Part shown: positions 44,148-61,912 of the stretch, in pieces | How positions within the stretch are numbered: the first letter of the stretch is position 1 | How the letters are laid out: every line of letters starts with the position of its first letter | Assembly (NCBI RefSeq): GCF_021023085.1 | Contig: NZ_PGCK01000005.1 | Span: 124,001-188,000, forward strand | Reading direction: 5' to 3' | DNA: 64,000 bases | Source: Methanooceanicella nereidis | Lineage (GTDB): Archaea > Halobacteriota > Methanocellia > Methanocellales > Methanocellaceae | Made by a program: the position numbers and the translations under genes | The notes under the pieces: generated by a model | Seen by the model: only the letters and a program-made list of their open reading frames with translations | What the model was told of the DNA's origin: nothing | Databases searched by the model: none

Positions 44148-45104
44148 ATGATGCAGTCCTTCTCAGTCCTTCTTACGGGCGGTCTCGGCCAGGTAGGATC
44201 TTATTTATGCGAAGAATTACTCGGGAACGGCCATGATGTCGTAATACTCGATAACATGTCATCGACCGTCAATATATGCCCGGAAAAGGCTAAATTCGTC
44301 AAAGGCGATATCAGGGATAAAAAGACCGTCGAAGAGCTGATGAGAGATTCGGACGCTGTGATCCATTGCGCGGCACAGATATTTGTCACCTATTCTATTG
44401 AAAACCCTCTTTTTGACGCGGAAAATAACGTTATAGGCACGCTGAACCTGCTTGACGCTGCCAGGAACAGCGATATAAAGAGATTCGTGTACTTTAGCTC
44501 CGCCGCAGTGTACGGAGACCCTGTCAGGCTTCCCGTCGACGAGACACACCCGCAGGACCCGATGTCCCCGTACGGCGTAAGTAAGCTTTCAGGGGAGAAA
44601 TACGCGCTGGCATTCAATAAGATATATGGCCTTCCTTCGACCGCCATAAGGCCGTTCAACATCTACAGCCCCAGGCAGGATCCGTCTAACCCTTATAGCG
44701 GAGTGATATCTAAATTCATCGACAGGGCAGGTTCAGGGATGAACCCGATAATTTTCGGCGACGGCTCCGCCACCAGAGATTTTGTCTCCGTGCACGACGT
44801 AGTTGATATGGTCATGCTGATGCTGGAGAAAGAGGCCGCTGTCGGTAAAGTGTTTAACTGCGGTACCGGCAACATTACCAGGATAGACGAGCTTGCAAGG
44901 ACCGTTATAGAGCTTTACGGTAAACCGGGCCTGGAACCGGAATTTTTGGCAGAGAGGCCGGGGGATATTAAGTATAGTTATGCAGATATTTCGCGGGCTA
45001 AAAAATTGCTGGGATATGAGCCTAAAGTCGCTTTGAGGGACGGGTTAATTGATATGATAGAATTCAAAAAGATGAATCAGGCCAAATCGACCGACGCTCA
45101 ATAG
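44148..45104 (+). CDS. NAD-dependent nucleotide-sugar epimerase/dehydratase (extended SDR)
   Basis: A 318-residue extended SDR. NAD-binding LLTGGLGQVGSYL, the YFSSAAVYGDP Ser region, the catalytic SPYGVSKLSGEKYA (Tyr-x3-Lys), IRPFNIYSPRQDPSNPY and the late VFNCGTGNITRIDEL show a UDP-glucose 4-epimerase-like enzyme. The exact sugar is not readable. The gene starts close to a TATA-like TTTATTCATAACTTATTATAG, so its transcript may be nearly leaderless. It overlaps the convergent deacetylase gene by seven bases. Confidence 0.93.
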   Translation: MMQSFSVLLTGGLGQVGSYLCEELLGNGHDVVILDNMSSTVNICPEKAKFVKGDIRDKKTVEELMRDSDAVIHCAAQIFVTYSIENPLFDAENNVIGTLNLLDAARNSDIKRFVYFSSAAVYGDPVRLPVDETHPQDPMSPYGVSKLSGEKYALAFNKIYGLPSTAIRPFNIYSPRQDPSNPYSGVISKFIDRAGSGMNPIIFGDGSATRDFVSVHDVVDMVMLMLEKEAAVGKVFNCGTGNITRIDELARTVIELYGKPGLEPEFLAERPGDIKYSYADISRAKKLLGYEPKVALRDGLIDMIEFKKMNQAKSTDAQ

Positions 45105-45907
45105 AGATCTGACATCCTGTAAAACGTCAGGTTATTATCATGAGCATATTTTAGCACTGCTTCGAGCCTCTCGTAGGATATGACTTTTTCAGTGCTGTTG
45201 TCGACAGTATAGTTTATTGGCTGGTGCGTGAAAAATATGACCGTCTCGTTGTGCTCTTTAGCTCTTTGCAGCCCTTCGAGGATCTCTTCGGTCGTTATAT
45301 CCTCGCTGTCATCTATGCAAACTGACGCTACGACCCTGTCGCCGTTGAACTTGTAGTATGCCTCGTTCGCGTCCTTGATATTATCGATGTTGGAGCCGGT
45401 CGTCACCCTTAAGCGCTTAAAATATTTTAGCAGCGCAGCATCGGTCTGAGAGCTATGGGAGCCATACGGATATGCGAAGCTCCTCGGGAAAAACCCTTTT
45501 TTGTTCATGGCGCCGATAGCCGAAAGTATCTCTGCGTCCAGATATTCTTCGATCGTATTGTTCGCCAGATAACAATCGGCATGGACATGGTCCAGCCCAT
45601 GGCACCCGATCTCATGCCCGTCCTTTCTTAAGTCCTTTAATTTCTCGATGTCGGACGTATTGAGATCATCGAAACCGGATACCATAAAGGTGACTTTTGC
45701 ATCGTATTTTTTTAGCATGTCGCGGATGGCATACCAGTCGCTAACGTAGTTATCGTCGAAAGTGATGACCACACCAGGCTTGCCATTGCCATTTATGTCG
45801 AAAAGAGACCCGTTCACTGAAAAAACAGTGACAGAGGTCACGAAAACTATTATCAGAATGACACCGAGGTATTTTGGATCAGGCAAAAGGTGTTTAAGCC
45901 CTTCCAT
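45098..45907 (-). CDS. Membrane-anchored polysaccharide deacetylase (NodB domain, CE4)
   Basis: A 269-residue protein with an N-terminal transmembrane segment (15-33) and a NodB domain outside. Motifs in order: VVITFDDNYVSDW (metal Asp), GHEIGCHGLDHVHADC (two His), FAYPYGSHSSQTD, and a late VIFFTHQPINYT. The first motif reads TFDDN where classic enzymes have TFDDG. Known members remove acetyl or other groups from polysaccharides outside the cell. Neighbouring sugar genes fit that role. Confidence 0.92.
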   Translation of the reverse strand: MEGLKHLLPDPKYLGVILIIVFVTSVTVFSVNGSLFDINGNGKPGVVITFDDNYVSDWYAIRDMLKKYDAKVTFMVSGFDDLNTSDIEKLKDLRKDGHEIGCHGLDHVHADCYLANNTIEEYLDAEILSAIGAMNKKGFFPRSFAYPYGSHSSQTDAALLKYFKRLRVTTGSNIDNIKDANEAYYKFNGDRVVASVCIDDSEDITTEEILEGLQRAKEHNETVIFFTHQPINYTVDNSTEKVISYERLEAVLKYAHDNNLTFYRMSDLY

Positions 45908-46054
45908 ATAAATGATTTATAACGTTATTTATATATTAAACTTATTATAACAATAAGTGTTCTATACATTATAATTTTACTTAAAATGAGTTGCGTTAGC
46001 CGTTATCATTGATGATAGAGATAGTCAAGAAATTACCTATTGAAAAGAATCGTC

Positions 46055-46153
46055 TTACAGATGTAAAATGAGTGCCACGCCTAATAATATGACGAGTATC
46101 ATAAGGAGTATAATATATCTCGTTCTCAGGAACAGCACTTCTATCCGATGCAT
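46055..46153 (-). CDS. Candidate single-span membrane microprotein (32 aa)
   Basis: A short frame beginning MHRIEVLFLRTRYIILL and continuing with a purely hydrophobic stretch to the stop, giving one transmembrane helix with a basic N-terminal side. It starts 12 bp after the stop of the glycosyltransferase-like gene on the same strand. No strong Shine-Dalgarno site. A similar microprotein with LFL-x2-RY before its helix follows the nucleotidyltransferase gene near 60.6 kb. It could be a small subunit or chance; see findings. Confidence 0.4.
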   Translation of the reverse strand: MHRIEVLFLRTRYIILLMILVILLGVALILHL

Positions 46154-46165
46154 GACTTTAATTTG

Positions 46166-46924
46166 TTAATTCTTATCAGATTTAAAATTTTTCCCAAAAA
46201 TTTCATATATTTCTAATAAATTACCTTCAGGAATAGCCTCATCGATATTTATACCAAAATAATTCTGCATCTGGCTGATCTTTTCAAATTCCCTTTCTAC
46301 GTTCATATGCGTCTTTGACTGCTCCCTGGTCTTTATTTCAGGCTCCGTTATCGTGCGCCTGTTGTAGAGGAGCAGGTATGTTATGACTATGTCGCCGATC
46401 CAGCAGGGCACGTTCTCCATCGAGAGGCATGATATCGTATCGCGGTTAAGCATTATTTCTACGCCTGGCTGGGGGTCTTTTATGCCGTTGGGATATGCTT
46501 TTCTGAAAAGTATGTTTTCGCAGTCTTCGACCAGGACCCTGTCGTAGTTGCCGTCCTGGAAGAACAGGGACTTTCTGACCCTTTTTGGTATGACGGCATC
46601 GTACCCGGAACTTTTTCCGAGTTCATATAATCTTCGTATTTCGGAGAAATAGAACTGATCGTCTCCGTCAGTGATTATGAGCTCGTTGGCATTATGCTCT
46701 TTGGCGTGGTCGATGATTATTCTTAGCGGCTCTGTAAGGCCTGACGGCTTTTGGCTGTAATAAAGGACTTTGTCGCAGAGACCTTTTATTTTTTCGGACG
46801 GATCATCGCCGCAGACTGCCAGTACGATCTTTGCACCGGGAAAATGTTTCCTGGCGTCGGTTAACTGCGAGAGAAGAATAGGTTCGTCGTTATCCAGTAA
46901 TGCGCGAATGCCGATGATCAACAT
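46166..46924 (-). CDS. GT-A fold glycosyltransferase-like protein
   Basis: A 252-residue protein resembling GT2-type glycosyltransferases: ALLDNDEPILLSQLTDAR at the start, EPLRIIIDHAKEHNANELIITDGDDQFYFSEI gives the Asp-rich nucleotide-sugar motif (DGDDQ), followed by GYDAVIPKR. The C-terminal 60 residues are helical and without known motif. It has no transmembrane segment. It probably works with the surface-sugar genes or with the modification cassette next door; the palindromic element B separates it from that cassette. Confidence 0.75.
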   Translation of the reverse strand: MLIIGIRALLDNDEPILLSQLTDARKHFPGAKIVLAVCGDDPSEKIKGLCDKVLYYSQKPSGLTEPLRIIIDHAKEHNANELIITDGDDQFYFSEIRRLYELGKSSGYDAVIPKRVRKSLFFQDGNYDRVLVEDCENILFRKAYPNGIKDPQPGVEIMLNRDTISCLSMENVPCWIGDIVITYLLLYNRRTITEPEIKTREQSKTHMNVEREFEKISQMQNYFGINIDEAIPEGNLLEIYEIFGKNFKSDKN

Positions 46925-46985
46925 ATGACTATAAAGGAGAGCGGAGAGATGTTAAATATTTTGGAATTTTCTTCTATATCTATAT

Positions 46986-48027
46986 GGTTGTGCCTGACGG
47001 ATGGCAGGTAGGCACGTGACCTCACAGAAACACGGAAACACTAAAATTTTTTATATGATTTTTTAAGGGCACGAAATTCTCTAAGAATTTACTCACGAAA
47101 TCTCTAAGGCTCTAGTATCACTGTCAACGCACAAACACCTCGAACGCCCGGCTCAACGCACTAACCTCTCTAAGTCACCAACTCTAAAACAAGGCCCGAA
47201 CATTCTCCAAAGCACTAAAGTTTAATATCCCGGTTTGTGTTGTAAAAAATTTGGTGTGGTCCTGGTTTAGTATTCTTGTTATCCCCCTTCCAATGTTCTG
47301 ATCGTTGAAATTTATAAGAAGACCGAGTCTTTTTCCGCTAAGCCTTAAGTTGTTGAGTAACTGGGCTTTATGTATAGGCTAAACCAGGTCCGTGGATTTG
47401 AACTCCACTACCAGGCAGTCGTCGACCAGCAGGTCCAGGATGAAATACTCATCATCATATACAATACCGCCTACACTATTGGTATCTTAATTTGTGTCTT
47501 GACATTGAATCCTCTGCTTCTTAGTTCTTTTACCATGAATCTCTCGTAGGTCTTTTCAGGCAGCCCGACCCCAAGCCTTTTATGGATGGTGTAAGCCGAA
47601 TCCACAGTATATTTTGCTGCTGTTTCAACGATATCAGGCAGCTTATCATATTTTCTTTCCATCATGATCACCTTAACAAAACAATACTAATTTGCTATTA
47701 TTTGCAATAAAGTATTATAAATTTATCCATCAAACAAAAAAACAGGAGAACAATCATACGACAATTAATGCATAACACAAACCGGGATATTAAACTTTCG
47801 TGTTTTGGAGAATATTCGGGCTTTGTTTTAGAGTTGGTGACTTTGAGAAGGTTGGTGCGTTGAGCCGTGCGTTCGAGCTGTTAGAGCGTTGACAGTGATA
47901 CTAGAGCCTTAGAGGTTTCGTGAGCCAACTTTTGGTGTCTTTGAGCCTTAAAAATCATATAAAAAATTTTAGTGTTTCCGTGTTTCTGTGAGATTACGTG
48001 TCTACCTGCCATCCGACAGGCACAACC
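46986..48027. mobile_element. Palindromic element copy B with broken GxxExxY gene
   Basis: About 1042 bp. The left arm (46986 to about 47240) and right arm (about 47770-48027) are inverted repeats of the same family as copies A, C, D and E. Outer ends extend perfectly: TATATGGTTGTGCCTG on the left and its complement CAGGCACAACCATATA on the right. Inner ends GTGTTG and AACACAAACCGGG flank a GxxExxY pseudogene. It lies between the GT-A gene and the nucleotidyltransferase gene. Confidence 0.85.
47263..47671 (-). pseudogene. Frameshifted GxxExxY protein gene
   Basis: The first 65 codons are nearly identical to the intact copy at 54.9-55.3 kb (one or two substitutions). At about 47475 one base is missing (8 instead of 9 between two conserved blocks), shifting the frame. 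Further on a second lesion appears: where the intact copy reads CAG-ATA-CAG, this copy reads CTG-GTT-TAG, an in-frame stop. The PD-(D/E)XK residues would be lost. So this copy is very probably inactive, although its arms are well kept. Confidence 0.85.
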
Positions 48028-48073
48028 ATATATTATTCTCATAAAAATACTGTTACTGGTATGATCTTAATAT

Positions 48074-49303
48074 TCATATTTTACGGATCAGCCTGCGCCA
48101 CCGCTTAAAATGTGAAACATAAGAAGGCCTGTCGTCGAAAGTCGGGTCTGTGATCTTTACCAGGCCGTTCGACGGGAATATCATCCTGTAATACAGGCGA
48201 GTCTTTTCCATGACGCTTGCGTTTTCAGGGACTATAAGCCTGATCTTTTCCACAGTGCCGCCTTTGGCCGCATACGAAAATGCCTTACATTCATCATCCG
48301 AAGGCTCCGGCCATTTTGAAAGATCGATGAATTCTGGCGGTATATTTAGCCCGGTCCAGAGATGCGTCATTGTCAAAGCTTTCTCCATGGCCAGCCTGGC
48401 GCCGCATTTCACGCTCAATTCCTGTACTGCGGCCCAATCATCATTACCGGTGATCTGCTCGCATAAAAGGCGAATGTCATATATCCAGTTGAGCCGTATG
48501 CTGTGCCCGTGGCTGTATACAAGATGATTGACCGCATGTATCAGCGCGTCTATCGGGCATAATGTTTTGAAGGAGAGACCTTGAGAGTTTACATTTACGG
48601 CATTGTCGAAAAGCTGCCCGACGTCCACGTTCTTACTTACCATGTTGAACGTGTAAAGGTTCCAGTGAACCTCTACAGGGCGATACCTGGAAAGGTCATC
48701 GTGACAGAATATCTCTTCGCAATAACCGTTTTTAGATACCTCGAACCGTTTTTCCACACATGCATATCCCAGGCTTTCCATAATTTCGCGAGAACGAATG
48801 ACGTTTTCAGGACGGACGAGAATGTCAATGTCCCCGCTTGCCCTCAAAGCAGTGTCAGAATATATTGACCGGGCATATGCGGGACCTTTTAGAAGTAACA
48901 GGTCTATTTCCTCATAATTAAAAGCATCGAGAATTTGTCCTGTTTGCCTCCCTGCCTGATCCGAGCTTATCCTGCTCTTAAGGAAATCCATTCTTAATAC
49001 GTTCACAATATTCTCAGGAGGCTGTAATTCGGCGGGCAGCGAGTATATATTTTTGTAGACCAGCGGGGCTATGCCGTGAGTATGTAAGAATACGGCGAAC
49101 CGAACCCACTCGCTCATGGAAATATCCGGTAGGACCGGCTCACTATCTTTTAAAATGGCTATAAGATATGATAACAGACCGTCAGGAAAATTTTCCAGAG
49201 GGTCAATATGGCCGTTACGCAGCTGGAAAACATCATGGATCTTTCTGATCTCGCTCAGAGTGTCATGACCGGCGTTACCTTCACTGGACAGCGTTATCGC
49301 CAT
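48074..49303 (-). CDS. Nucleotidyltransferase-family protein (NTP_transf_5, PF14907)
   Basis: A 409-residue protein. LLLLKGPAYARSIYSD (about 136-150) and the catalytic-type GDIDILVRPE (157-166, with Asp158 and Asp160) match PF14907. EVHWNLY and ALIHAVNHLVYSHGHS follow as in the family. Known: the family is found in lasso-peptide and polysaccharide clusters; the pseudomycoidin member PsmN is reported to add hexose to a phosphorylated Ser. It overlaps the signal peptidase gene by 23 bp, so it is translationally linked to the cassette. A paralogue lies at 60.7-61.8 kb. Confidence 0.88.
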   Translation of the reverse strand: MAITLSSEGNAGHDTLSEIRKIHDVFQLRNGHIDPLENFPDGLLSYLIAILKDSEPVLPDISMSEWVRFAVFLHTHGIAPLVYKNIYSLPAELQPPENIVNVLRMDFLKSRISSDQAGRQTGQILDAFNYEEIDLLLLKGPAYARSIYSDTALRASGDIDILVRPENVIRSREIMESLGYACVEKRFEVSKNGYCEEIFCHDDLSRYRPVEVHWNLYTFNMVSKNVDVGQLFDNAVNVNSQGLSFKTLCPIDALIHAVNHLVYSHGHSIRLNWIYDIRLLCEQITGNDDWAAVQELSVKCGARLAMEKALTMTHLWTGLNIPPEFIDLSKWPEPSDDECKAFSYAAKGGTVEKIRLIVPENASVMEKTRLYYRMIFPSNGLVKITDPTFDDRPSYVSHFKRWRRLIRKI

Positions 49304-49955
49304 AACACACCGAACTCATGAAAGATCCTTTTAGAGAGTTGTGTCTATCCAGGTACTCTTCGTCGATGAACAGATCATATGGCCTGAATATTCTCCAGCT
49401 CTCGGCCCCGGGAAGACGCTTGCCCACAAGCTTTTTACCCATGAACAGCTGCATCTCCATACCTTCGGGGCGCTTGAAATGCAGGACATACATGTCCTTT
49501 TGTCCGGCCATATCCTTCTTTAATAGCGCGGGCCATATGCCGTTTATCCGGTAAACTACATAGAACACGTACGCTTTGGAAAATTTAATGAACCTGTGCC
49601 ACAGGTACGATAAGCCTCCGCGAAGGCCGCCGGATATCTTTACCAGCTTTGAGCCTCGCTCAACGAAGACGACCTGTCCTATCAGGTTATTCGGCCTGAG
49701 CACCCATTTATCAACATAGGCGTTGTTATCGCCACGCGTCTTGATCCCCTCGTCGGTGATCGAGATAATGCGATGCGCCACCTTTTTTCCCTCGTCCGGC
49801 GTAAAAAATGCGACTACGTCCCCGCATCTGATGCCCCTGTTAATGTAAGGTATAACGCAAAGCATGTCAAGATCCTTTAAAGTGGGATACATGCTCTTCC
49901 CTACGTACACCAGATTGTTTACAGGAACACCTAAATCTACACGTCCCCTGACCAT
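49281..49955 (-). CDS. S26-type signal peptidase of archaeal (Ser-His) form
   Basis: A 224-residue protein. The catalytic Ser21 lies in VGKSMYPTL, His61 in KVAHRI replaces the bacterial Lys as in archaeal/eukaryotic signal peptidases, and Asp76 lies in RGDNN. It lacks the usual N-terminal transmembrane anchor; hydrophobicity occurs only in the middle (about 125-145). The C-terminal half (from about 100) is an unusual extension. Placed between the kinase-like and nucleotidyltransferase genes, it may remove the leader of the neighbouring candidate peptide (inference). Confidence 0.85.
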   Translation of the reverse strand: MVRGRVDLGVPVNNLVYVGKSMYPTLKDLDMLCVIPYINRGIRCGDVVAFFTPDEGKKVAHRIISITDEGIKTRGDNNAYVDKWVLRPNNLIGQVVFVERGSKLVKISGGLRGGLSYLWHRFIKFSKAYVFYVVYRINGIWPALLKKDMAGQKDMYVLHFKRPEGMEMQLFMGKKLVGKRLPGAESWRIFRPYDLFIDEEYLDRHNSLKGSFMSSVCYGDNAVQ

Positions 49956-50012
49956 ATCCCCAAAACCCTTATATTAATGTAATTCTATTTTTATAAGTTA
50001 TCTTTATTAGTA

Positions 50013-50918
50013 TTAAAAAATTGCTATCTCTATCTCTTCCCAGAACCTTCCGGATATGCTTACCCGAAGTTTAAATAATGGGATCTCTTTTGCTATTTCG
50101 CATGAGTTATGGAATATCGCCTCATTCAGAGACCGTGCATCGTTTTTACTAAGATTTACCCAGTAACGGTGACATGCATCCATGGCCGACCTGTAGATAA
50201 CGGAAGCCGCCGCCCCTTTCCCGACAGGAATGACTTCATCTTTCCTGGACTGTTCGAGTAAAAAGATGGCTTCTACGGGAAAATGACGGGAAACATCCCA
50301 TGTGCCGGGGCTGTTTCGTTCCAGAAAATCGCTCCATGTGGGGAAAGGATGCGCATGATAACGCCCGCTGCCGGTATCCCTGACTATCAATACTTCCTCA
50401 TCGCAGATCGTGTTCCATGGCGAAGGAATGCGGCGGCAGCATGTGGATTTACCGGTCTTCGAAGGGGCTGTGAGCAATACGCCTTTGCCGTTAAGCTCTA
50501 CAAGGCCGGCGTGAAACGGAAGACATCCTGCCTTTAAGTTTTTATTATAGAAGAATGACAGGAAATTCGCGATAAGGATTATATCGGGCTCGTGATACTC
50601 TTCCTTATAATCAACAGCACATATTATGTCGGGTACGTCTTCATGCTGCCATATTTTTATTAGCCCGATCTGGCTGTAATTCCATCCGTTTCCGGGTAGA
50701 TAGCAGGGTAATTCATCATATTTTTTTGGATCAAGACTATCTGATGTAAATTTTTCAAGATCATCGGTTATAAAATAGATATTAATGCCGTCCTCATCCG
50801 GACCGCATGCCTTTAGACGCATTATTGACGCGAATCTTTCCACCCAAGAGATGGTAGTTTTTGTAGGTATGATCCGCCAGGACCTGCCGTTACTTAATCG
50901 TAGAAGGAAAGATCTCAT
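50013..50918 (-). CDS. HPr-kinase-like P-loop protein (ScmC-type)
   Basis: A 301-residue protein. FHAGLVELNGKGVLLTAPSKTGKST (split here: FHAGLVELNGKG, then P-loop APSKTGKST at 151-159) is the HprK-related kinase pattern, with an acidic CDEEVL following at about 172-177. The first P-loop residue is Ala rather than Gly. An N-terminal domain (1-125) of unknown fold precedes it. Known: HprK-like kinases in lasso clusters phosphorylate the last Ser of the peptide. I recall a similar protein, ScmC, in the SynChlorMet cassette. It starts 14 bp after the candidate precursor's stop. Confidence 0.82.
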   Translation of the reverse strand: MRSFLLRLSNGRSWRIIPTKTTISWVERFASIMRLKACGPDEDGINIYFITDDLEKFTSDSLDPKKYDELPCYLPGNGWNYSQIGLIKIWQHEDVPDIICAVDYKEEYHEPDIILIANFLSFFYNKNLKAGCLPFHAGLVELNGKGVLLTAPSKTGKSTCCRRIPSPWNTICDEEVLIVRDTGSGRYHAHPFPTWSDFLERNSPGTWDVSRHFPVEAIFLLEQSRKDEVIPVGKGAAASVIYRSAMDACHRYWVNLSKNDARSLNEAIFHNSCEIAKEIPLFKLRVSISGRFWEEIEIAIF

Positions 50919-50932
50919 ATCAATAAAAGCAT

Positions 50933-51211
50933 TTAGCTTCCGAATGCCGCCTGGCCATTGGTACAGCCGCCAAGCCCGGTATTGCTTTGCCCGTTATCGC
51001 ATCCGAAAGTCTTGTTAGCCTGTCCTACTCCGCATCCATCTGTCGTGTTATTCTGACCTGTGCTGCATCCTCCGGACGTATTAGTATTCCCGGTATTGCA
51101 GATGCCGCCTGGATTGCTTATGCCGTTATGGCAAAGAGAACCGCCGGACTGGCCGAGGACTACGTCACTGAACTTTATCAGCTGCGGCTTTTCGTAAACT
51201 AGCTTCCCCAT
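50933..51211 (-). CDS. Candidate RiPP precursor: six Cys in 11-residue repeats
   Basis: A 92-residue protein with two parts. The leader (about 1-24, MGKLVYEKPQLIKFSDVVL then GQSGG) has a Y-x2-P-x-L motif like leaders bound by PqqD/RRE domains, and ends in Gly-Gly. The core (25-92) is Gly/Asn/Thr/Ser-rich with Cys at 27, 38, 49, 60, 71 and 83, so spacing 11, 11, 11, 11, 12. The unit is C-x-x-G-x-x-N-x3-G. The last residue is Ser. It has no transmembrane segment. Its neighbours are a kinase-like gene downstream and two radical SAM/SPASM genes and a PqqD gene upstream, beyond element D. The translation product and its modification are inferred. Confidence 0.8.
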   Translation of the reverse strand: MGKLVYEKPQLIKFSDVVLGQSGGSLCHNGISNPGGICNTGNTNTSGGCSTGQNNTTDGCGVGQANKTFGCDNGQSNTGLGGCTNGQAAFGS

Positions 51212-51287
51212 AGGATAACCACGTCTATACCCTTATCTACCACACCACATCTTCTTTGAGGACAATGCATCAAAGGTAAGGTCTATT

Positions 51288-51326
51288 CAAATAATACTTA
51301 CAACGCAGGCCGTATATAAATTTTGT
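51288..51326 (-). promoter_or_regulatory. Promoter of the candidate precursor unit
   Basis: On the minus strand a TATA box TTTATATAC (51320-51312) preceded by an A-rich BRE-like AACAAAA predicts a start near 51288 and a leader of about 75 nt before ATG 51211. This gives the precursor-kinase-peptidase-nucleotidyltransferase unit its own promoter, separate from the radical SAM genes. Confidence 0.55.
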
Positions 51327-51383
51327 TTAAATAAAGATGAAGATTAAACATTTTTAGTTCTTTTTGGGGTTTTATTTTAGGTT

Positions 51384-51928
51384 ATTCTGTCCGGATGGCA
51401 GGTAGATACTAATTTCACAGAAACACGGAAACACTAAAATTTTTAAATGATTTTTTTAAGGCACGAAATCTCTAAGAACTTACTCACTAAACCTCTAAGG
51501 CTCTAGTATCACCGTCAACGCTCTAACACCTCTAACGCTCGGCTCAACGCACTAACCTCTCAAATTCACCAACGCTAAAACAAGACACGAACATTCTCCA
51601 AGGCACGAAAGTTTAATGGCCCGGTTGACGTTTCGTTTTATCGATGCCATCCTGGACTTTTTTCCTTTTTGTTAAATTGAAACCGAAACCGGGATATTGA
51701 ATTTTCGTGCCTTGGGGAGGTTCGGGGTTTGTTTTAGCGTTAGTGTATTAGAGAATTTGGTGCGTTGAGTCGAGCGTTTGGGACGTTAGTGCGTTGACGG
51801 TGATACTAGAGCCTCAGAGATTTTGTGAGTGAATTTTTGGTGCCTTTGAGACCTTAAAATTATAAAAAAAATTGTGTTTCTGTGTTTCTGTGAGGTTAGT
51901 ATCTACCTGCCATCCGACAGGTACAACC
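51384..51928. mobile_element. Palindromic element copy D (no gene)
   Basis: About 545 bp. Ends CTGTCCGGATGGCAGGTA on the left and TACCTGCCATCCGACAGGTA on the right, with the same unit order in the arms as the other copies. The centre is almost the same as in copy A (GTTGACGTTTCG, ATGCCATCCTGGACTTTTT, GAAACCGAAACCGGG), so A and D are one subfamily. It lies between the candidate precursor's promoter and the radical SAM gene, dividing the modification cassette into two transcription units. Confidence 0.85.
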
Positions 51929-51969
51929 ACAAAAACATCATCCCGAAAATGATAAAACTTTTCCAGGCA

Positions 51970-53085
51970 TCATTTATCTGGTTTTACATAAATCCTTGAC
52001 GCCGGGAATATGTCTCTATTCTTCGCTTCCTTACAGTACCAGAACGGGGCCCATATGCTCTTGCTCGAATAATAGTTCTGCGCTATGCAGCTTCCGAGGC
52101 ATATGCTTTTCATAAGGCATTCGCCGCAGACACCTTCAAGCCGCGCGGGAAGCCCCTCGCGGAGTTCGCGAAGTATCGGCTCATTTGACCATACATCTTC
52201 AAGGCGATCTTTTCCGGCTTTCCCGAATGTCAGTTCAGGCACATGCGCCCCGATCCCGCAAAGAGCATAGGTCCCGTCAGCCAGGACTCCGACGATGTTC
52301 AATATCCCGCAGACAGTGCACCCGCACCCTGTGCTCCCGAACATCTTTCCCATAGGCCTGAACGCAGGAGGCTGAGTGTAATGTAATTTTAAGAAAGTTT
52401 TTTCCGCCAGCTCGCCTTCCACCCATTTTCCAAGGCTTACCAGTTCCTCGATGCCTGAGGTCTCTCCGGCGTCATGCATTTTTTCGCCCCTTGCAGTGGG
52501 CTGTACGACGTTGAACTTTAGGCTGCTTGCGCCGAGGGATTCGGCCAGCCTGATCATATCCTCTATCTGGCCGGAATTCCTGCGCATTATGGTCATGATG
52601 ATCTCGGGCTTTATCCCTGCATTGACGAGGTTCCTTATTCCTTCCAGGGCCGCATCGAAGCATCCTTCAACGCCCCTTACCCATTCATGCGTCTCTTTAT
52701 TCGCCCCGTCGAGGCTCACGGATATGCAGCCGGGCTTACATGAGGCGATAAGCCGCACCATTTCCAGGGTGCAAAGAACGCCGTTAGTCTCTATGCAGAG
52801 AATGAGGCCGTTGTCTCGTATGATATTAATGATCTCCTGAATGTCAGGATGAAGCAGAGGCTCTCCGCCTGTCAATTTTACTCTTTGAAGACCCAATGGT
52901 TTAGCTTCTTCTATGATGGATCTAAAAAGGCTGACAGGGATGTAATTGAATTTTCCTTCTTTAGAATATTTTGGGGATATCCAGCAGTGCCGGCAGCGCA
53001 GATTGCATCCGTCCGTGAGATAAAAATATATCTGAGTCAGCGGATATGTGCGTTCGCTGGAGCCTTGCGGGATATTTTTGTGCAT
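51970..53085 (-). CDS. Radical SAM/SPASM maturase (ScmE/ScmF-like)
   Basis: A 371-residue radical SAM enzyme. The first 4Fe-4S cluster is held by Cys27, Cys31 and Cys34 (CNLRCRHC), the GGEP motif follows in KLTGGEPLLHP, and the C-terminal SPASM region has GCGCTVCG, YALCGIG, CGECLMKSICLGSC and a last Cys, for two further clusters. Such enzymes crosslink or otherwise modify ribosomal peptides. It lies 12 bp after the second SPASM gene. From memory the pair resembles ScmE and ScmF of the SynChlorMet cassette; I cannot tell which is which. Confidence 0.93.
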   Translation of the reverse strand: MHKNIPQGSSERTYPLTQIYFYLTDGCNLRCRHCWISPKYSKEGKFNYIPVSLFRSIIEEAKPLGLQRVKLTGGEPLLHPDIQEIINIIRDNGLILCIETNGVLCTLEMVRLIASCKPGCISVSLDGANKETHEWVRGVEGCFDAALEGIRNLVNAGIKPEIIMTIMRRNSGQIEDMIRLAESLGASSLKFNVVQPTARGEKMHDAGETSGIEELVSLGKWVEGELAEKTFLKLHYTQPPAFRPMGKMFGSTGCGCTVCGILNIVGVLADGTYALCGIGAHVPELTFGKAGKDRLEDVWSNEPILRELREGLPARLEGVCGECLMKSICLGSCIAQNYYSSKSIWAPFWYCKEAKNRDIFPASRIYVKPDK

Positions 53086-53097
53086 GGTCGCCCTCTT

Positions 53098-54201
53098 TTA
53101 CGTTTCCGGGATCTTTCCCCCATTCCTGAGGAATGTGCGCAGGCAGCCATCAGGATCGGGATGGTCCAGGTTTCCCGTGATATTATAAGTATTTGCGGGA
53201 CAGTTGCCGGTACAATACTTGATATACTCGCAATCACTGCATAAGTCAAAATTGTTTAACGGTATCATGCGCCTTTCGCGCAGCCTTATCATTTCGGGAT
53301 GGCGCTGCCAAATATCTATAAGCCGGTCCTCGTTTATCCTTCCAAGCTCGATCTGGCTCAATAGCTGGCACGGCACGATGACGCCGTCAGCCCGCACCGC
53401 GAGCCTTTCGAACGGGCATCCGCATCCTGTCAGATAGCCTCTGCCCTGGATGTCATTGCCCTCTTTTCGTGCTTTTTCCATTTCCATCCAGGCTTTCGCG
53501 TCGGCCAGCGGTCCGGCTGTCGCGTGTATTCTTCCCGGGTATTTTTTTGTGAGCTTTAGAAGAGCGTTCATCGCCAGCATACGGTCATTCGTATCGAGCC
53601 GTATCTTTTTCGAGTTTTGCTGGCATAGTCCCATGTATGATGCAGAATTGGTCGAGAACGTGGGAATGCCGATGTCTTCTAGTAATAATTTCGCTACGTT
53701 TTCCAGGTCCGTGACGTTTTCTTTATGGATGGTCACCCTTACCGTGACAGGGACGCCATTCTCTTTTAAGCACTTAAGCCCGTTTATCGCCTTTTGGAAA
53801 GTGCCTTTGCCGCGGTATATATCATGGATATTTTCATTAGAGCCGTCAATTGATACCTGTACGGCGTCGCATCTTTTCGCAGAGCTTAAAAAACGGGCAA
53901 TGTCTTCCGTTATTAAAGTCCCGTTCGTCAGTATTGAATACCTCATCCTGTTTTTAACGATGCCTTCTATTATCTCAAAAATATCTTTTCTGTAGAATGG
54001 CTCTCCGCCTTCGAGTACGACTCTCATCACAGAGCATTCGTTGAGCTCTTTGAAAAATTGTAGCCATTCTTCTGCCTGGAGATCATGTTTGACGTCGCCG
54101 GGGCTGCTAAAGTGGCTGCAGTAAGAGCACCGCAGGTTGCAGTCGTTGGTAACGGCGATGTCTATCGCCCTCGGCGTCCTCATGATCTTTTCGGCGGTCA
54201 T
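53098..54201 (-). CDS. Radical SAM/SPASM maturase (ScmE/ScmF-like)
   Basis: A 367-residue radical SAM enzyme. Cluster cysteines are Cys21, Cys25 and Cys28 (CNLRCSYC), with VVLEGGEPFYRKDI following. SPASM cysteines: TGCGCPFERL, VPCQLL, CSDCEYIKYCTGNCP and a last Cys in DGCLRT. It begins one base after the PqqD stop, so these two are translationally coupled. Sequence identity to the other SPASM protein is low outside motifs, suggesting different steps or different residues on the same peptide. Confidence 0.93.
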   Translation of the reverse strand: MTAEKIMRTPRAIDIAVTNDCNLRCSYCSHFSSPGDVKHDLQAEEWLQFFKELNECSVMRVVLEGGEPFYRKDIFEIIEGIVKNRMRYSILTNGTLITEDIARFLSSAKRCDAVQVSIDGSNENIHDIYRGKGTFQKAINGLKCLKENGVPVTVRVTIHKENVTDLENVAKLLLEDIGIPTFSTNSASYMGLCQQNSKKIRLDTNDRMLAMNALLKLTKKYPGRIHATAGPLADAKAWMEMEKARKEGNDIQGRGYLTGCGCPFERLAVRADGVIVPCQLLSQIELGRINEDRLIDIWQRHPEMIRLRERRMIPLNNFDLCSDCEYIKYCTGNCPANTYNITGNLDHPDPDGCLRTFLRNGGKIPET

Positions 54202-54202
54202 A

Positions 54203-54475
54203 TCATGCTTTAGAACCTACAAGGCCTCTGTTTTCAAGGTCAAGGATGAACTCTATCACGTCGTTTTTGTAACTATCGGGAACTCCCTCGCAGTTTTCCG
54301 TCAGCTCGCCGAAAACGTCTTCTACGGTGTGGTCGCCGTCGAGATGCTTCCATATGAAAACGCCTGTAGGGTTTAACCCGAATGTCTCTCCTGTGTTTGG
54401 ATCGTAAAGTAATGCCCAGTCGTCGAACTCTTCTCTGAGGACGATAGACGGGTTAGCAATAGGCCTGTCGATCAA
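54203..54475 (-). CDS. PqqD-family peptide chaperone (RRE; ScmD-like)
   Basis: A 90-residue protein of the PqqD fold: VLREEFDDWALLYDPNTGETFGLNPTGVFIW, then HTVEDVFGEL and FILDLENRGLVG, split here only to name the order of segments. PqqD proteins hold the leader of a precursor and pass it to the radical SAM enzyme. I place the start at TTG 54475, since it follows a strong GAGGGGGG site at the right distance; a longer frame reaching 54673 would include part of palindromic element C and is not believable. It leads the unit pqqD-rSAM-rSAM. Confidence 0.9.
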   Translation of the reverse strand: MIDRPIANPSIVLREEFDDWALLYDPNTGETFGLNPTGVFIWKHLDGDHTVEDVFGELTENCEGVPDSYKNDVIEFILDLENRGLVGSKA

Positions 54476-54604
54476 ATGAACCCCCCTCAATATAATGTAG
54501 ATGATAAGAATTAAACATATAAAATGATATCCATATCGATAGACTTGAAGTGACAAACTGAGTAAATTCTGTAATGTTATATTTTTCTTCGGCTTTTTGG
54601 ATAT

Positions 54605-55658
54605 GATGTTTTTGTGGTTGTGCCTGACGGATGGCAGGTAGGCACGTAACCCCACAGAAACACAGAAACACAAAATTTTTTATATGATTTTTTAAGGGCA
54701 CGAAATTCTCTAAGAGTTACTCACAAAACCTCTAAGGCTCTAGTATCACTGTCAACGCACAAACACCTCTAACGCCCGGCTCAACGCACTAACCTCTCTA
54801 AGTCACCAACGCTAAAACAAGGCCCGAACATTCTCCAAAGCACTAAAGTTTAATATCCCGGTCTGTGTTGTAAAAAATTTGCGTTTTAGTTTATTATTCT
54901 TGTTATTCCCTTTCCTATGTTCTGTTCGTTGAAATTTATCAATAGACCGAGTCTTTTTCCGCTAAGCCTTAAATAGTTGAGCAATTGTGCTTTATGTATC
55001 GGCTGTATCTGATCTGTGGATTTAAATTCTACTACCAGGCAGTCGTCGACCAGCAGGTCCAGGATGAAATACTCATCATCATACACGATACCTTCGTATG
55101 TTATTGGTATCTTGATCTGTGTCTTGACATTGAACCCTCTGCTTCTTAGTTCTTTTACCATGAATCTCTCGTAGGTCTTTTCAGGCAGCCCGACCCCAAG
55201 CCTTTTATGGATCGTATAAGCCGAATCCACAGTATATTTTGCTGCTGTTTCCACAATATCAGGTAACTTCTCGTATTTTCTTTCCAACATGATCACCTTA
55301 ACAAAACAATACTAATTTGCTATTATTTGCAATAAAGTATTATAAGTTTATCCATCAGACTAAAAAAGTGAACAGGTATACGATCATTGAACAACACAAA
55401 CCGCGCCATTAAACTTTAGTGTTTTGGAGAATGTTCGTGCCTTGTTTTAGAGTTGGTGACTTAGAGAGGTTAGTGCGTTGAGCCGAGCATTAGAGGTGTT
55501 AGAGCGTTGACGGTGATACTAGAGCCTTAGAGACTTTTGTGAGTAATTTTTTGTGATTTTAGAGACTTTAAAAATCATATAAAAAATTTTTGTGTTTCCG
55601 TGTTTTTGTGAGGTCACGTGTCTACCTGCCATCCGTCAGGCACAACCACAAAAACATC
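54605..55658. mobile_element. Palindromic element copy C with intact GxxExxY gene
   Basis: About 1054 bp. The arms (54605 to about 54868, and about 55393 to 55658) are inverted repeats. The outermost 37 bases are perfect complements (GATGTTTTTGTGGTTGTGCC... on the left). The inner ends GTCTGTGTTG and CAACACAAACCG enclose one gene on the minus strand. This is the best candidate for a complete, active form of the family. It lies between the PqqD gene's promoter and the ABC transporter gene. Confidence 0.88.
54886..55296 (-). CDS. GxxExxY protein (PD-(D/E)XK nuclease superfamily)
   Basis: A 136-residue protein. The naming motif G-x2-E-x2-Y is GLPEKTY (Gly36, Glu39, Tyr42). The nuclease-like core shows Asp80 in FILDLLVDD and Glu90-x-Lys92 in VVEFKS, matching PD-(D/E)XK (PF13366, TIGR04256). 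No catalytic activity is established for the family in my knowledge. The gene sits in the centre of element C and a broken copy sits in element B, which ties this protein to the palindromic repeats. Shine-Dalgarno AAGGTGATC precedes the start. Confidence 0.92.
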   Translation of the reverse strand: MIMLERKYEKLPDIVETAAKYTVDSAYTIHKRLGVGLPEKTYERFMVKELRSRGFNVKTQIKIPITYEGIVYDDEYFILDLLVDDCLVVEFKSTDQIQPIHKAQLLNYLRLSGKRLGLLINFNEQNIGKGITRIIN

Positions 55659-55659
55659 A

Positions 55660-55851
55660 CATTCAAAAAAAACCGAAGAATTAAAAATCAGGTGCTTCCA
55701 GAGTGATATATTTAAGTCTTATCAACAAGTATACCTTGATAACCGGCCTGTCATAAATAAGGCCGGCCAGTGTGCGGGGGTATACGGGGATGTTGAAGAG
55801 CTTATTGACATATATCGTAAGGTCAATGAGCGTGACTGGCGTCCATATTAA
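55660..55851 (+). CDS. Possible C-terminal gene fragment next to element C
   Basis: The frame is open from inside the right end of element C and ends at 55851. The last 50 residues look protein-like (FKSYQQVYLDNRPVINKAG, then DVEELIDIYRKVNERDWRPY) rather than random. There is no start codon of its own outside the element, so it may be the tail of a gene cut by the insertion, or chance. It overlaps the region where the ABC transporter could begin in another frame. An inverted repeat ACCGGCCT/AGGCCGGC occurs at about 55742-55767. Confidence 0.3.
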   Translation, partial: HSKKTEELKIRCFQSDIFKSYQQVYLDNRPVINKAGQCAGVYGDVEELIDIYRKVNERDWRPY

Positions 55852-57610
55852 AGATATTTTTCATACCCCGAAAAGTTCAGATAATGAGAAGTTCAAATGG
55901 AAAGATCTCATATTCTTTTTCCGGTTCGTTAAGCCCGTCTGGAAGCTCGGTGCTTTATCCATCATTTTATCTATCCTCATAAGCGCCATTCAGTCGATAA
56001 TGCCTATGAGCACTAAGGTGTTCATCGATTTTGTCATAATGAAGAACGGCTTTGACACCGTCGAAGGCTTTCTGGCGTCTTTTGGCATGGGAACGCTTGC
56101 TCCGGGCATTATAGAGCTGTTGAGCTCTTTGAATTTTGTCATACTGGCCCTGATAGTCCTTGGCCTGACCTCGGGGCTCTCGGGAATATTGAAGGACTAC
56201 CTTAATACGAAATATACGCAGCGGATCACGTTTAACGTGCAGACGACGCTGTTTGACCGCGTGCTGAGGTTCCCGATGTCGTTCTTTAAGGAGAAGCAGA
56301 CTGGATATCTTGTGTCGAGGGTGCAGAATGACGTGGGCTCCGTGCAGTATTTCTTCTCCAATATCATCTCATCTGCCGTCTCAAGCAGTGTGTCGCTTGT
56401 GTTGGGCTTATTGATCATACTGGCCATTAGCACTAAGATAACGCTTTTAGTCGTGCTCCTTGTTCCTGTTTACCTGATAGTGAGCGTGTTCTTTTCGGGC
56501 AGGATGAGACGGGTCAGCTATGATGAGATGGAATCGTCGGCGAATGTCTCGAAGGATCTCCAGGAGATATTGTCGGGCGTCGAGGTCGTGAAGTCGTATA
56601 CGAGCGAGGAGAGGGAAGTCAGGAAGGTTTCGGAGAAGATCGATAAGGTCATTAAGACGAGGATGAAGAGCACGATGATCTCATCTTTTTCCGGCTTTAT
56701 CATGAGAGGCGTTCAGTCGGTGTTCCTTTTACTGGTCATGTGGTTCGGTGCCATAGAGATACAGAATGGCGCGATGACTATCGGGGATTATGTCGCGTTT
56801 ATCGCTTACGTGGCGTTTCTTTCCGGGTCTGTTGGAAGGCTGTTCTCGTCTTACATTTCGCTACAGACTATACTGGCGTCGATGGACAGGCTGAAAGAAA
56901 TGTTCAGTATTGTGCCGGAGCATGAAAATGCAGATAGGCAGCTTATTGTCCCGAATGATTGTAAAGGCGGCATCAAGTTTGAGAATGTAACGTTTTCGTA
57001 TGACGACAAAGATGCTGTTATTAAAGATCTCAACCTGGAAGTAAGATCCGGGGGATCTGTCGCATTGATAGGGCCGAGCGGGTCGGGAAAGACGACAATA
57101 GTGAACTTAATCTTAAAACTTTATACTCCGGGATCAGGCGCGATATACCTGGATGGTGTCGATCTTAGAGATATTGATACGGAATGGCTGAGGAAGCAGA
57201 TCGCAATAGTGTCGCAGGATGTTTTTCTTTTTGACGATACGATAGAGAATAATATCAGGTACGGGATGCCTTCGGCAAGCAGGGAAGAGGTAATTGAGGC
57301 CGCGAAGAAGGCGCATATACATGAGTTCATAGAGTCCCTTCCCGATAGCTATGCTACGATCATAGGGGAGAGAGGGGTGAAACTCTCCGGAGGGCAGAGG
57401 CAGAGGATAGCGATAGCGAGGGCGTTCCTGAAGGATGCGAGGATACTGCTGCTGGATGAGCCGACGTCTGCACTCGATACGGAGACTGAGGATAGTATTA
57501 AAGGGTCCTTAAGGGAACTGATAGATAACAGGACGACATTTGTCATATCGCATAAATCATCGTTGATCGATATTACGGGAAATATGCTTGTAGTTAAAAT
57601 AGGAACTTAG
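55826..57610 (+). CDS. ABC exporter, fused membrane and ATPase domains
   Basis: About 594 residues. An N-terminal six-helix membrane domain (about 25-320) is followed by an ATPase domain with Walker A GPSGSGKTT, Q-loop VSQDVFLFDD, signature LSGGQRQR, Walker B ILLLDEPTSALD and switch His in ISHKSS. No C39 peptidase domain. Type IV exporters of this form move lipids, peptides or polysaccharides. Located beside the modification cassette, it could export its product (inference). ATG 55826 is preferred; ATG 55790 (after GGGGG) and GTG 55772 are in frame. Confidence 0.92.
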   Translation: MSVTGVHIKDIFHTPKSSDNEKFKWKDLIFFFRFVKPVWKLGALSIILSILISAIQSIMPMSTKVFIDFVIMKNGFDTVEGFLASFGMGTLAPGIIELLSSLNFVILALIVLGLTSGLSGILKDYLNTKYTQRITFNVQTTLFDRVLRFPMSFFKEKQTGYLVSRVQNDVGSVQYFFSNIISSAVSSSVSLVLGLLIILAISTKITLLVVLLVPVYLIVSVFFSGRMRRVSYDEMESSANVSKDLQEILSGVEVVKSYTSEEREVRKVSEKIDKVIKTRMKSTMISSFSGFIMRGVQSVFLLLVMWFGAIEIQNGAMTIGDYVAFIAYVAFLSGSVGRLFSSYISLQTILASMDRLKEMFSIVPEHENADRQLIVPNDCKGGIKFENVTFSYDDKDAVIKDLNLEVRSGGSVALIGPSGSGKTTIVNLILKLYTPGSGAIYLDGVDLRDIDTEWLRKQIAIVSQDVFLFDDTIENNIRYGMPSASREEVIEAAKKAHIHEFIESLPDSYATIIGERGVKLSGGQRQRIAIARAFLKDARILLLDEPTSALDTETEDSIKGSLRELIDNRTTFVISHKSSLIDITGNMLVVKIGT

Positions 57611-57645
57611 CTGAACGAGAATTGGTTTTTCGGTTAGAGAAAAAC

Positions 57646-58203
57646 GTTGTGCCTGACGGATGGCAGGTAGGCACATAATTTCACAGAAACACGGAAACAC
57701 TAAATTTTTTTAATGGTTTTTTAAGGGCTCTAAATCACTAAAAATTACTCACCAAACCACAAAGGCTCTAGTATCACCGTCAATGCTCTAACACCTCTAA
57801 CGCCCGGCTCAACGCACCAACCTTCTCAAAGTCACTAACTCTAAAACAAAGCCCGAACATTCTCCAAAACACGAAAGTTTAACGGCCCGGTTTGTGTTGC
57901 ACCCTGTTCGATCCCATGACGAGCTAACACTATTGCCAAAAAAATGAAACGTCAACCGGGCCGTTAAACTTTCGTGTTTTGGAGAATGTTCGGGACTTGT
58001 TTTAGCGTTGGTGAGTTAGAGAAATTAGTGCGTTGAGCCGGGCGTTAGAGGTGTTAGAGCATTGACGGTGATACTAGAGCCTTAGAGACTTTCGTGAGTA
58101 AACTCTTTGAGATTTTCGTGCTCTTAAAAAATCATATAAAAAAATTTTGTGTTTCTGTGGTTCTGTGAGGTTACGTGCCTACCTGCCATCCGTCAGGCAC
58201 AAC
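57646..58203. mobile_element. Palindromic element copy E (no gene)
   Basis: About 558 bp. It has the same ends (GTTGTGCCTGACGGATGG... and its complement at 58170-58203) and the same arm order. Its centre differs from A and D: TTTGTGTTGCACCC then AACGTCAACCGGGCCG, as if the inner ends of a gene-bearing copy had joined. It lies directly after the ABC exporter gene and before the convergent GT39-like gene. Confidence 0.85.
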
Positions 58204-58241
58204 CACAAAAGTATTCTCAGGAATACTGAAGATAAAATATG

Positions 58242-60380
58242 TCATCTGTCGATCACGATATAGTCAAGAGTTATGCCGAGCTCCCTGTCGTCATAGCTTA
58301 ACCGTTCGTCTTCCTTAATGCCGTACTCATATGGTACCCAGGTATTCACTCTGATCTCGAGTATATGATAATCGCCTTCCAGATACACGGCAGGCACCTG
58401 GATAGTATGATTATAGTCTCCGGCATACTTTACGAATTCGCCGATCTTAGTGTCATTTATGAATAATTCAACTCTCGCGGGGTCATCTTCAGGCCTGAAG
58501 CCCCCTGTGGCAAGAGTGAGGTTCGCGTCGCCGTACTCTGCAGGATAGTAAAAAATGACTTTTGAGGAATCTTTAGTCCACCGGTACTTATTCTGCTCGG
58601 GATACTGGAAGCCGTCGATAACGTCAGTATCGTCCTTGCCGCCGACATCAATGACGTATGGCACCGTTATAGTATTGTTCTTATTTATGTCGTATAGCCG
58701 GCTATTTGTAAAGAGAGTCCCGAAATTGATCTGTGTACCATAGTAGGGCAGCGGTTTTGGGGAGATGAGGTAATCTACGCCGGAGCCGTAATGCTCAATG
58801 GTGTGTTTATCCGTAGTGTTAATTATTACGTTATCCGGACCGTAATAGAATACCAGATAATGCCAGAGCCGTTTTATGGAATTGAAATTTTCCGAGTCGA
58901 CCATTATGATCGAATCCTCGGTGACACCTTGATCCGTGAGCTGGTTAAACGTACCCATGGACTTTATCGACGTCTTTAATTCCATGTTATATGTGGGGAT
59001 AGTCACTATGAGCGATATCAGGATCATAAAGGCCGGTAAAATGAACACATATTTTGGATATTTCGATGAGACATAGAATAGAAATAAGACCGCCACGCAT
59101 AGAGCGAGCGAGAATAACGCCAGTATATAGCCATCCATGTTCATGAGATAATATATGGTCATGTTTCCGGCGGCGTCGAAATATTTTGGTATCGTCGACA
59201 TCAGGATGAACGCAGTTATAAGGACCGCTATGGACGAAACAATGAATTTTTTGTTATTGAATGTCGGGGACATTTTTTCCATGCCGATGAAGCCGAATAT
59301 GAATACCAGAGGTATGATCGGCCCTATGTACCTGCCGTACATCTCATAGTTCATAGGGACTATGAATAAGATACAGACAATGAAAAGCCCGACGGATGAG
59401 AACAATGCATAAACGCCGGAAATTCGCAGGGGTACGTCCATGAGGTTTTTATCCTTTTTTACCAGGCTGTAAAACAGGATGATCGTGATAACGATGAAAA
59501 AGTAGGAGGATAATAACAGGAAATTGATCTCATTTAGGAAGGTCATTAAATAATCGGCTATTATGCCGGGATAATCTATCGTCGCGGCTGACTGGTTCGT
59601 CACGGTCGTCGCGACGAAATTGGGATCGTAAGGGGAGCCGAATGAATAATATTCCGTGGGTATCATATAAGCGGAATAGCCTAACCATAAGGTCAGAAAA
59701 ACGATGAGTGACGCTATTAAGGCCCATTTCTTTTTGACGGCGCGGAGCAGGTCTCCCCCGTTCCTGTTAACGTACAGGTAATAAATGAACGCGAGCACGA
59801 ACGCCGCTATCATCGCCAGGCCGTTTGAGCGCGTCATGTAGAGATATACGACGGAAAACGAAGCTAAGATGTCCCAGATCTTTTTATCGCTGCTGTAACT
59901 CTCCAGGATGAACCACATCGAATATACGAATAGGGGGATGAACAGGTTTTCGCTCATCAGCGTGAACGGATAGAAATTAAAGGCGGGCAAGGTCGCTACG
60001 GCTAATGAGCCTGATATTGCCAGGCCTGCGGAGCAATATTTTCTTAGTATGAAATAAGCGGGGAATATTACCGACGTTGTTATTATTGAGTTTATTATCA
60101 GCATCGTGTGATAGACCGTATCCCGATCATCGGAGAACAGGTAGGCTATGGACAGAGGGATCGAATATCCCGGTGGTGTGGTCCCTCCCACTATGGCTAT
60201 GAATTCAGGGTATAGTTTGCCGTTTAGAACATTCTGGGCGATGCTGTCATAGAACGTTTCGTCAGGCATTATTACTAAGGATGCGAAATTTAGTGAGAGA
60301 AATATTTTAATTGATAATATAATTAGAAAAGCGGCGATGATAATAAGTAAGCCGTTGCTTAGTTTAGTTTTTTCATTCAT
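58242..60380 (-). CDS. GT39/GT-C-like membrane glycosyltransferase
   Basis: A 712-residue protein with about 13 transmembrane segments and a C-terminal soluble domain (about 480-712). A first extracellular loop with acidic MPDETFYDSIAQN (Asp40, Glu41) and then TPPGYSIPLSIAYLFSDD is typical of PMT/GT39-like enzymes, which transfer sugars from lipid-linked donors to outside acceptors. The C-terminal half is beta-rich with VTFFYPAEYG-like segments and could bind a glycan. Its end faces element E. Confidence 0.85.
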   Translation of the reverse strand: MNEKTKLSNGLLIIIAAFLIILSIKIFLSLNFASLVIMPDETFYDSIAQNVLNGKLYPEFIAIVGGTTPPGYSIPLSIAYLFSDDRDTVYHTMLIINSIITTSVIFPAYFILRKYCSAGLAISGSLAVATLPAFNFYPFTLMSENLFIPLFVYSMWFILESYSSDKKIWDILASFSVVYLYMTRSNGLAMIAAFVLAFIYYLYVNRNGGDLLRAVKKKWALIASLIVFLTLWLGYSAYMIPTEYYSFGSPYDPNFVATTVTNQSAATIDYPGIIADYLMTFLNEINFLLLSSYFFIVITIILFYSLVKKDKNLMDVPLRISGVYALFSSVGLFIVCILFIVPMNYEMYGRYIGPIIPLVFIFGFIGMEKMSPTFNNKKFIVSSIAVLITAFILMSTIPKYFDAAGNMTIYYLMNMDGYILALFSLALCVAVLFLFYVSSKYPKYVFILPAFMILISLIVTIPTYNMELKTSIKSMGTFNQLTDQGVTEDSIIMVDSENFNSIKRLWHYLVFYYGPDNVIINTTDKHTIEHYGSGVDYLISPKPLPYYGTQINFGTLFTNSRLYDINKNNTITVPYVIDVGGKDDTDVIDGFQYPEQNKYRWTKDSSKVIFYYPAEYGDANLTLATGGFRPEDDPARVELFINDTKIGEFVKYAGDYNHTIQVPAVYLEGDYHILEIRVNTWVPYEYGIKEDERLSYDDRELGITLDYIVIDR

Positions 60381-60564
60381 CCGGATATCAATGTAAAAGA
60401 TGTTTTATAATTCATATAATTATTGGTAATTTATCTGCCTGTTTTTTATAAATAAAATGGGTGAGGCGTATAACGAGGAAGTATCATCCCGGATCAATCT
60501 GATGGATTCCGGATGTGAACCGCTCAGGGATTGAATAGTCTTGTTGTAAATGCTTATATTAGGA

Positions 60565-60678
60565 TTATGTTAAAAACTCAGTAATGTACATAATCCAGAT
60601 CGCCACCATAGTGCTGATAATAGAAAATGGAATGGTTACCCAAGTATAACGGAATTCAAGGAATAGAGGATATTTCAC
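60565..60678 (-). CDS. Candidate single-span membrane microprotein (37 aa)
   Basis: A GTG-started frame that overlaps the nucleotidyltransferase stop by four bases (GTGA), which is usual for coupled genes. It reads MKYPLFLEFRYTWVTIPF and continues with one hydrophobic helix. It resembles the 32-residue frame at 46.1 kb in having LFL-x2-RY before the helix. No Shine-Dalgarno site of its own, as expected for coupled translation. Confidence 0.45.
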   Translation of the reverse strand: MKYPLFLEFRYTWVTIPFSIISTMVAIWIMYITEFLT

Positions 60679-61832: not shown

Positions 61833-61912
61833 TATGAATTATTTGGTGATGTCCCGTATATTTAAAACATTATGGTCCTAAAATAAGAAAAGTTGATAGA
61901 AGCATATTGTGA

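Follow-up and report, generated by a model that had tools for sequence, protein, structure and literature searches.

The SynChlorMet (SCM) cassette of Methanooceanicella nereidis is read here, by analogy, as a radical-SAM-equipped counterpart of the linear polyphosphorylated peptide (LPP) system, in which the HprK-like protein ScmC is likely to be a kinase acting at a site other than the C-terminal Ser of the precursor. The cassette lies in a stretch of 64,000 nucleotides (contig NZ_PGCK01000005.1, positions 124,001 to 188,000), referred to as the window, and its profile matches identify it as an SCM RiPP cassette, a family already named by NCBIfam (TIGR04248-TIGR04252). ScmC, ScmD, ScmE and ScmF all exceeded their cut-offs (287 bits against 125, with E 1.5e-85, for ScmC; 120.9 against 100 for ScmD; 595.5 against 400 for ScmE; 586.3 against 400 for ScmF), and a precursor of the family layout is encoded alongside. 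The named SCM models are ScmA, C, D, E and F; the S26 and PF14907 partners carried no SCM name in our scans. The name of the cassette is thus already known, and the new elements here are its connection with LPP and the prediction of a site in the first repeat. SCM cassettes have been named since the NCBIfam modelling; the Haft paper is said to be the source for SCM and the Zhu paper that for paeninodin. A literature search found no paper on the product of an SCM cassette, nor any naming SynChlorMet. The features of the window cassette are the following.

48074..49303, minus strand: PF14907 nucleotidyltransferase (D158, D160), by Pfam match
49281..49955, minus strand: S26 signal-peptidase-like protease (S21, H61), proposed leader peptidase, by TIGR02228
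50013..50918, minus strand: ScmC, HprK/PEPCK-fold kinase-like protein (H136, K157, D173, E174), by TIGR04249
50933..51211, minus strand: precursor peptide (ScmA-like), 92 aa, an ORF in the same place as the precursors of relatives
50936..50938, minus strand: Ser92, C-terminal residue, the target proposed in the earlier note, unconserved in the precursor comparison
50936..51133, minus strand: core with six Cys-x-x-Gly repeats, residues 27-92, from the ORF translation and repeat statistics
51116..51118, minus strand: Ser32 in the first repeat (CHNGIS), putative kinase target, from first-repeat Ser enrichment
51179..51196, minus strand: leader motif YEKPQL, residues 6-11, probable ScmD binding site, from the recurrent [YW]xxPx[LIVMA]
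51970..53085, minus strand: ScmF, radical SAM/SPASM enzyme, by TIGR04251
53098..54201, minus strand: ScmE, radical SAM/SPASM enzyme, by TIGR04250
54203..54481, minus strand: ScmD, PqqD-like RRE, by TIGR04248, from an in-frame GTG
55772..57610, plus strand: MsbA-like ABC exporter, by PF00664 and PF00005

The order precursor, HprK-like protein, S26 peptidase and PF14907 nucleotidyltransferase on the minus strand, described in the earlier note, was borne out with all four ORFs in the positions given there, as was the C-terminal Ser of the 92-residue precursor (...AAFGS). The precursor and HprK-like genes are 14 nt apart, the HprK-like and S26 genes 57 nt, and the S26 and PF14907 genes overlap by 23 nt. 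The ScmD ORF extends to 54673 and TIGR04248 covers its residues 72-154; the true start is probably near 54481, at the in-frame GTG.

Because the window precursor did not match the ScmA model TIGR04252 and only one of ten sibling precursors (that of L056) passed it, the model is narrow. Precursors were collected with a filter that required the leader motif, at least three Cys, Gly at +3 or +4 of most Cys, and a core of small residues. In this way 75 distinct precursors were recovered in 59 of 85 non-duplicate loci, all 75 carrying the [Y/W/F]xxP-type leader motif that the filter demanded; the 26 loci that gave none include several short contigs. The precursor of L035, which ends in Thr, did not pass the filter and is absent from all counts. 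Also left out, as duplicates, were L059 (of L030), L071 (of L031), L072 (of L037) and L087 (of L034). The layout of the window precursor, a [YW]xxP leader followed by a Cys-repeat core, was common to the 74 others. The 399 repeats of the 75 precursors consisted of 347 CxxG and 52 CxxxG with a Cys spacing of mostly 9-12, the third place after the repeat Gly was taken by Ala in 53% and by Pro in 20%, and Ser and Thr together made up 21% of core residues. An A-Y-A-Q-like stretch directly before the first Cys was seen in the precursors of L045, L052, L062, L065, L078 and L118; it resembles a signal-peptidase cut site, in line with a predicted role of the S26 protein as leader peptidase.

The three enzymes encoded next to the precursor look active, judging by their conserved residues. 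ScmC gave only a weak match to Pfam HprK_C (E 0.0024, under the cut-off), and in a profile search of the PDB its closest solved sequence family was HprK (E 5.5e-05). Its predicted structure (pLDDT 92) matched PEPCK with Z 13.8 and an rmsd of 5.0 over 246 aligned residues; PEPCK dominates the best 50 Foldseek or VIA-align matches listed for ScmC, and HprK chains are not among them. By its modelled fold and its P-loop, ScmC is thus placed in the HprK/PEPCK superfamily. The motif HKD[D/E] was kept in 62 of 64 ScmC rows, the other two being fragments from trimming; 59 rows have HKDD, and the window protein has HKDE, its Glu174 standing where 95% of relatives have Asp. Since the His-Lys-Asp-Asp/Glu of lasso-peptide kinases is retained, a kinase role for ScmC is likely; in a review, His-Lys-Asp-Asp is reported to be essential in the lasso kinases (PMC9266682). 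The Ser-His S26 peptidase of the earlier note was likewise supported, with 53.9 bits against the archaeal signal peptidase model TIGR02228 (cut-off 51.85) and with Ser21 and His61 kept in 39 of 39 aligned sequences. The last gene matched PF14907 with E 1.2e-49 and 169.6 bits (cut-off 31.2), and its Asp158 and Asp160 were kept in all 42 occupied alignment rows. The PF14907 profile found no relative at E <0.3 among solved structures by sequence; the model of the protein (pLDDT 85) had LnuA and ANT(2'') among its best fold matches (E 3e-04 to 7e-04), so that by fold and by its two metal-binding Asp it resembles a minimal nucleotidyltransferase. A second PF14907 gene is present in the window at 60675-61832 (E 1.2e-44), and a third match was seen on another contig of the genome.

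The linkage of these genes was counted over 52 related loci, free of duplicates and each 12 kb or longer, one of which is the window segment. ScmC was found near ScmE in 45 of them, the S26 protein in 36, the PF14907 protein in 32 and the exporter in 32, with all four present in 21. Given these frequencies of ScmC, S26 and PF14907 near ScmE, the arrangement of genes is not due to chance. ScmC and S26 were fused into a single ORF in eight loci (L033, L035, L036, L085, L112, L115, L116, L120), with the S26 half first in L085 only. A single set of radical SAM enzymes is accompanied by two ScmC-S26-PF14907 sets in L032, and by several precursors in other genomes (four in L054, three in L046). ScmC was missing from five of 12 probed genomes (G397, G399, G401, G402, G403). 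In the very small sample of ScmC-less cassettes, a precursor was found only in L080, where the first repeat is without Ser; a search of L044, L053, L064 and L066 gave none.

A known gene set close to this one is that of the LPP, for which an RRE, an HprK kinase, a SpI peptidase, a MsbA-like exporter and an NTP transferase form the core, reported mainly in Bacillota (Popov et al. 2026, PMC13381572). In that system the kinase LppK places up to four phosphates on core Ser3, Thr or Tyr at this position being unused, LppS removes the leader only with the RRE and inefficiently when the kinase is lacking, and deletion of the NTP transferase caused no change in the host used (PMC13381572). All five parts have counterparts in the window, including a discrete RRE and an archaeal-type signal peptidase, and make up the half of the cassette other than its radical SAM enzymes; the two systems share the YxxP leader motif, whose role as [Y/W]xxP is taken from the LPP work (PMC13381572). 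A polysaccharide-gene setting is also common to both; in the window an epimerase (44148-45104), a deacetylase (45098-45907) and a sugar-nucleotide dehydrogenase (from 63675 onward) flank the cassette. However, the LPP have another leader consensus and no Cys repeats: of YxxPxVLxHQxIxFETxxS the window leader YEKPQLIKFSDVVLG matches the YxxP part only, and on this ground membership in the LPP was rejected. No radical SAM enzymes are described for the LPP in the main text of the paper, from which the word "radical" is absent (PMC13381572). The phosphorylated lasso peptides paeninodin and pseudomycoidin share an HprK-like His-Lys-Asp-Asp kinase with the window cassette and, in the case of pseudomycoidin, also a nucleotidyltransferase (PMC9266682), but the window family is without their conserved C-terminal Ser. 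Neither a macrolactam synthetase (C protein) nor a B2 peptidase was found among the genes scanned (44148-63998), and in the absence of a cyclase among them a lasso peptide identity was rejected. With its radical SAM/SPASM enzymes and a Cys-rich precursor next to them, the cassette recalls the sactipeptides and ranthipeptides, which are not known to have a module of kinase, S26 and PF14907 proteins.

We hypothesize that the product is made in an ordered pathway, all reactions of which, with their order, we infer; the protein families, catalytic residues, linkage, precursor family and the patterns of C-terminal and first-repeat Ser are observed. ScmD would bind the leader via its YxxP motif, and the Cys-x-x-Gly repeats in the core would be modified by ScmE and ScmF, with thioether links as a guess at the chemistry. 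The Ser to be phosphorylated by ScmC would lie near the leader and would most likely be the one that follows the first-repeat Gly, in the window Ser32. Leader removal by the S26 enzyme would come next, the PF14907 enzyme would attach a sugar or a nucleotide to the phosphate, and the ABC protein would export the final product. Taken as a whole, with ScmC acting on the leader-proximal Ser, this pathway is favoured by a small margin over its being wrong.

For the site of phosphorylation, the earlier note had proposed the C-terminal Ser, with a sugar then placed on the phosphate by the PF14907 enzyme. In favour of this, the window precursor ends in Ser, and the lasso kinases PadeK, ThcoK and PsmK act in this way (PMC9266682). 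In lasso systems with an HprK-like kinase the C-terminal Ser is called "extremely conserved" (PMC9266682). The comparison of last residues among homologous precursors, which that note had named as a check, went against it. The 75 precursors ended in Gly (9), Pro (9), Val (7), Thr (7), Ala (6), Ser (5) and others, so that Ser and Thr reached 16% at the C-terminus compared with their 21% in the cores; in a second set of 16 precursors the last residue was Ser in none and Thr in one. Moreover, the last repeat was depleted in Ser over the 91 precursors (33 with Ser, 43.2 expected). As the share of Ser and Thr at the end is below that in the core, the C-terminal Ser of the window is no family trait. 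It was rejected as the kinase target, and phosphorylation there followed by sugar addition now appears very improbable. What stood of the earlier proposal is the module itself: a kinase and nucleotidyltransferase of the paeninodin and pseudomycoidin type, with lasso-kinase residues in ScmC, does occur together with a radical SAM system.

On the other hand, Ser was enriched at the leader-proximal end of the core. Of the 75 first repeats, 55 had a Ser at one of the two places that follow the Gly, compared with 143 of the 324 later repeats (Fisher p 5e-06). The idea had arisen from these 75 peptides and was therefore tested on 16 new precursors, obtained with the same filter from 30 further loci, 17 of which gave none. 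Here Ser was found in 11 of 16 first repeats against 19 of 62 later ones (p 0.009) or, counting only the first place after the Gly, in 11 of 16 against 11 of 62 (p 0.0002). When repeats were shuffled within each peptide, the observed 66 of 91 first repeats with Ser exceeded the expected 43.1, and none of 20,000 shuffles was as high; after thinning to one peptide per locus, which controls relatedness among the peptides only in part, 48 of 67 remained against 31.0 expected. First-repeat Thr was not raised over the 91 precursors (17 against 23.5 expected from shuffles), and in the second set of 16 it was raised (7 against 3.7). The leader Tyr or Trp stands 22-25 residues (quartiles) from the first-repeat Ser and 44-205 from the C-terminus; a kinase that reached a set distance from the leader while this is bound would be expected to have its target close by. 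It counts against a target of the Ser32 type that 25 of the 91 precursors are without a first-repeat Ser, mostly in loci with an intact ScmC. The first repeat is also distinct elsewhere, with more Pro at G-1 and G+3, and its Ser may therefore be there for the peptidase or the radical SAM enzymes. For these two reasons the first-repeat Ser is a lead to the ScmC site and not proof of it. The raised first-repeat Thr of the second set and the Glu174 of the window ScmC also weigh against such a target, as does the first-repeat Ser of the window itself, which sits one place later than in the commonest form. The same distinct positions would suit a Ser that acts as a recognition or acceptor residue for ScmE and ScmF or for S26, while ScmC phosphorylates another core Ser or Thr, perhaps several. 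Such targets are plentiful in the cores, and each of the six lowest-scoring cores listed has at least three Ser or Thr; nevertheless, the bias is specific to Ser over all 91 precursors, which fits a Ser-only enzyme such as LppK, and we regard this reading as unlikely, with some weight left to it. A further reading takes ScmC away from the peptide altogether, to phosphorylate another protein or to give ATP-driven help to the exporter or to the S26 peptidase. In its favour, the substrate of the HprK family proper is a protein, the similarity to Pfam HprK_C is weak, and the eight S26 fusions would fit a peptidase helper too. However, the catalytic residues are kept, the genes for ScmC and the precursor are neighbours in the window, as in many relatives, and in the LPP the corresponding enzyme phosphorylates a peptide, so that a role outside the peptide is improbable.

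Returning to phosphorylation near the leader, we suggest tentatively, and at somewhat less than even confidence, that SCM products form a hybrid class, namely radical-SAM-modified Cys-repeat chains in which one leader-proximal Ser would be phosphorylated and later capped with a sugar or nucleotide by the kinase-peptidase-transferase module of LPP and lasso peptides, in archaea and many bacterial phyla. Seen against the LPP module, which has been studied by experiment, a list of unnamed genes becomes a pathway that has an order, can be tested and predicts a single modified residue. If it is true, one peptide-phosphorylation module would serve three unrelated core chemistries, i.e., lasso, linear and radical SAM. 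The remark in the earlier note that this combination would be unusual in an archaeon needs correction, since the cassette is named by NCBIfam and occurs in several methanogen groups (Methanotrichaceae, Methanogenium, Methanospirillum, Methanothrix) and in many bacterial phyla. ScmC was above the cut-off in nine of 392 genomes of the phylum of the window, its own genome counted. A scan with the ScmE alignment gave 79 loci (the best 79 of 106 matches), distributed over Deltaproteobacteria, Chlorobi, Nitrospirae, Omnitrophota, Aminicenantes, Chloroflexi and others.

Within the window, a family of dispersed intergenic repeats spans 46976-58224, with about four copies in both orientations between the blocks of cassette genes, including 51369-51940, which separates ScmF from the precursor. 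A PD-(D/E)XK-like gene (PF13366) at 54886-55367 has a partial second copy, 88-94% alike, across the cassette at 47265-47742, as though a block had been duplicated or inserted.
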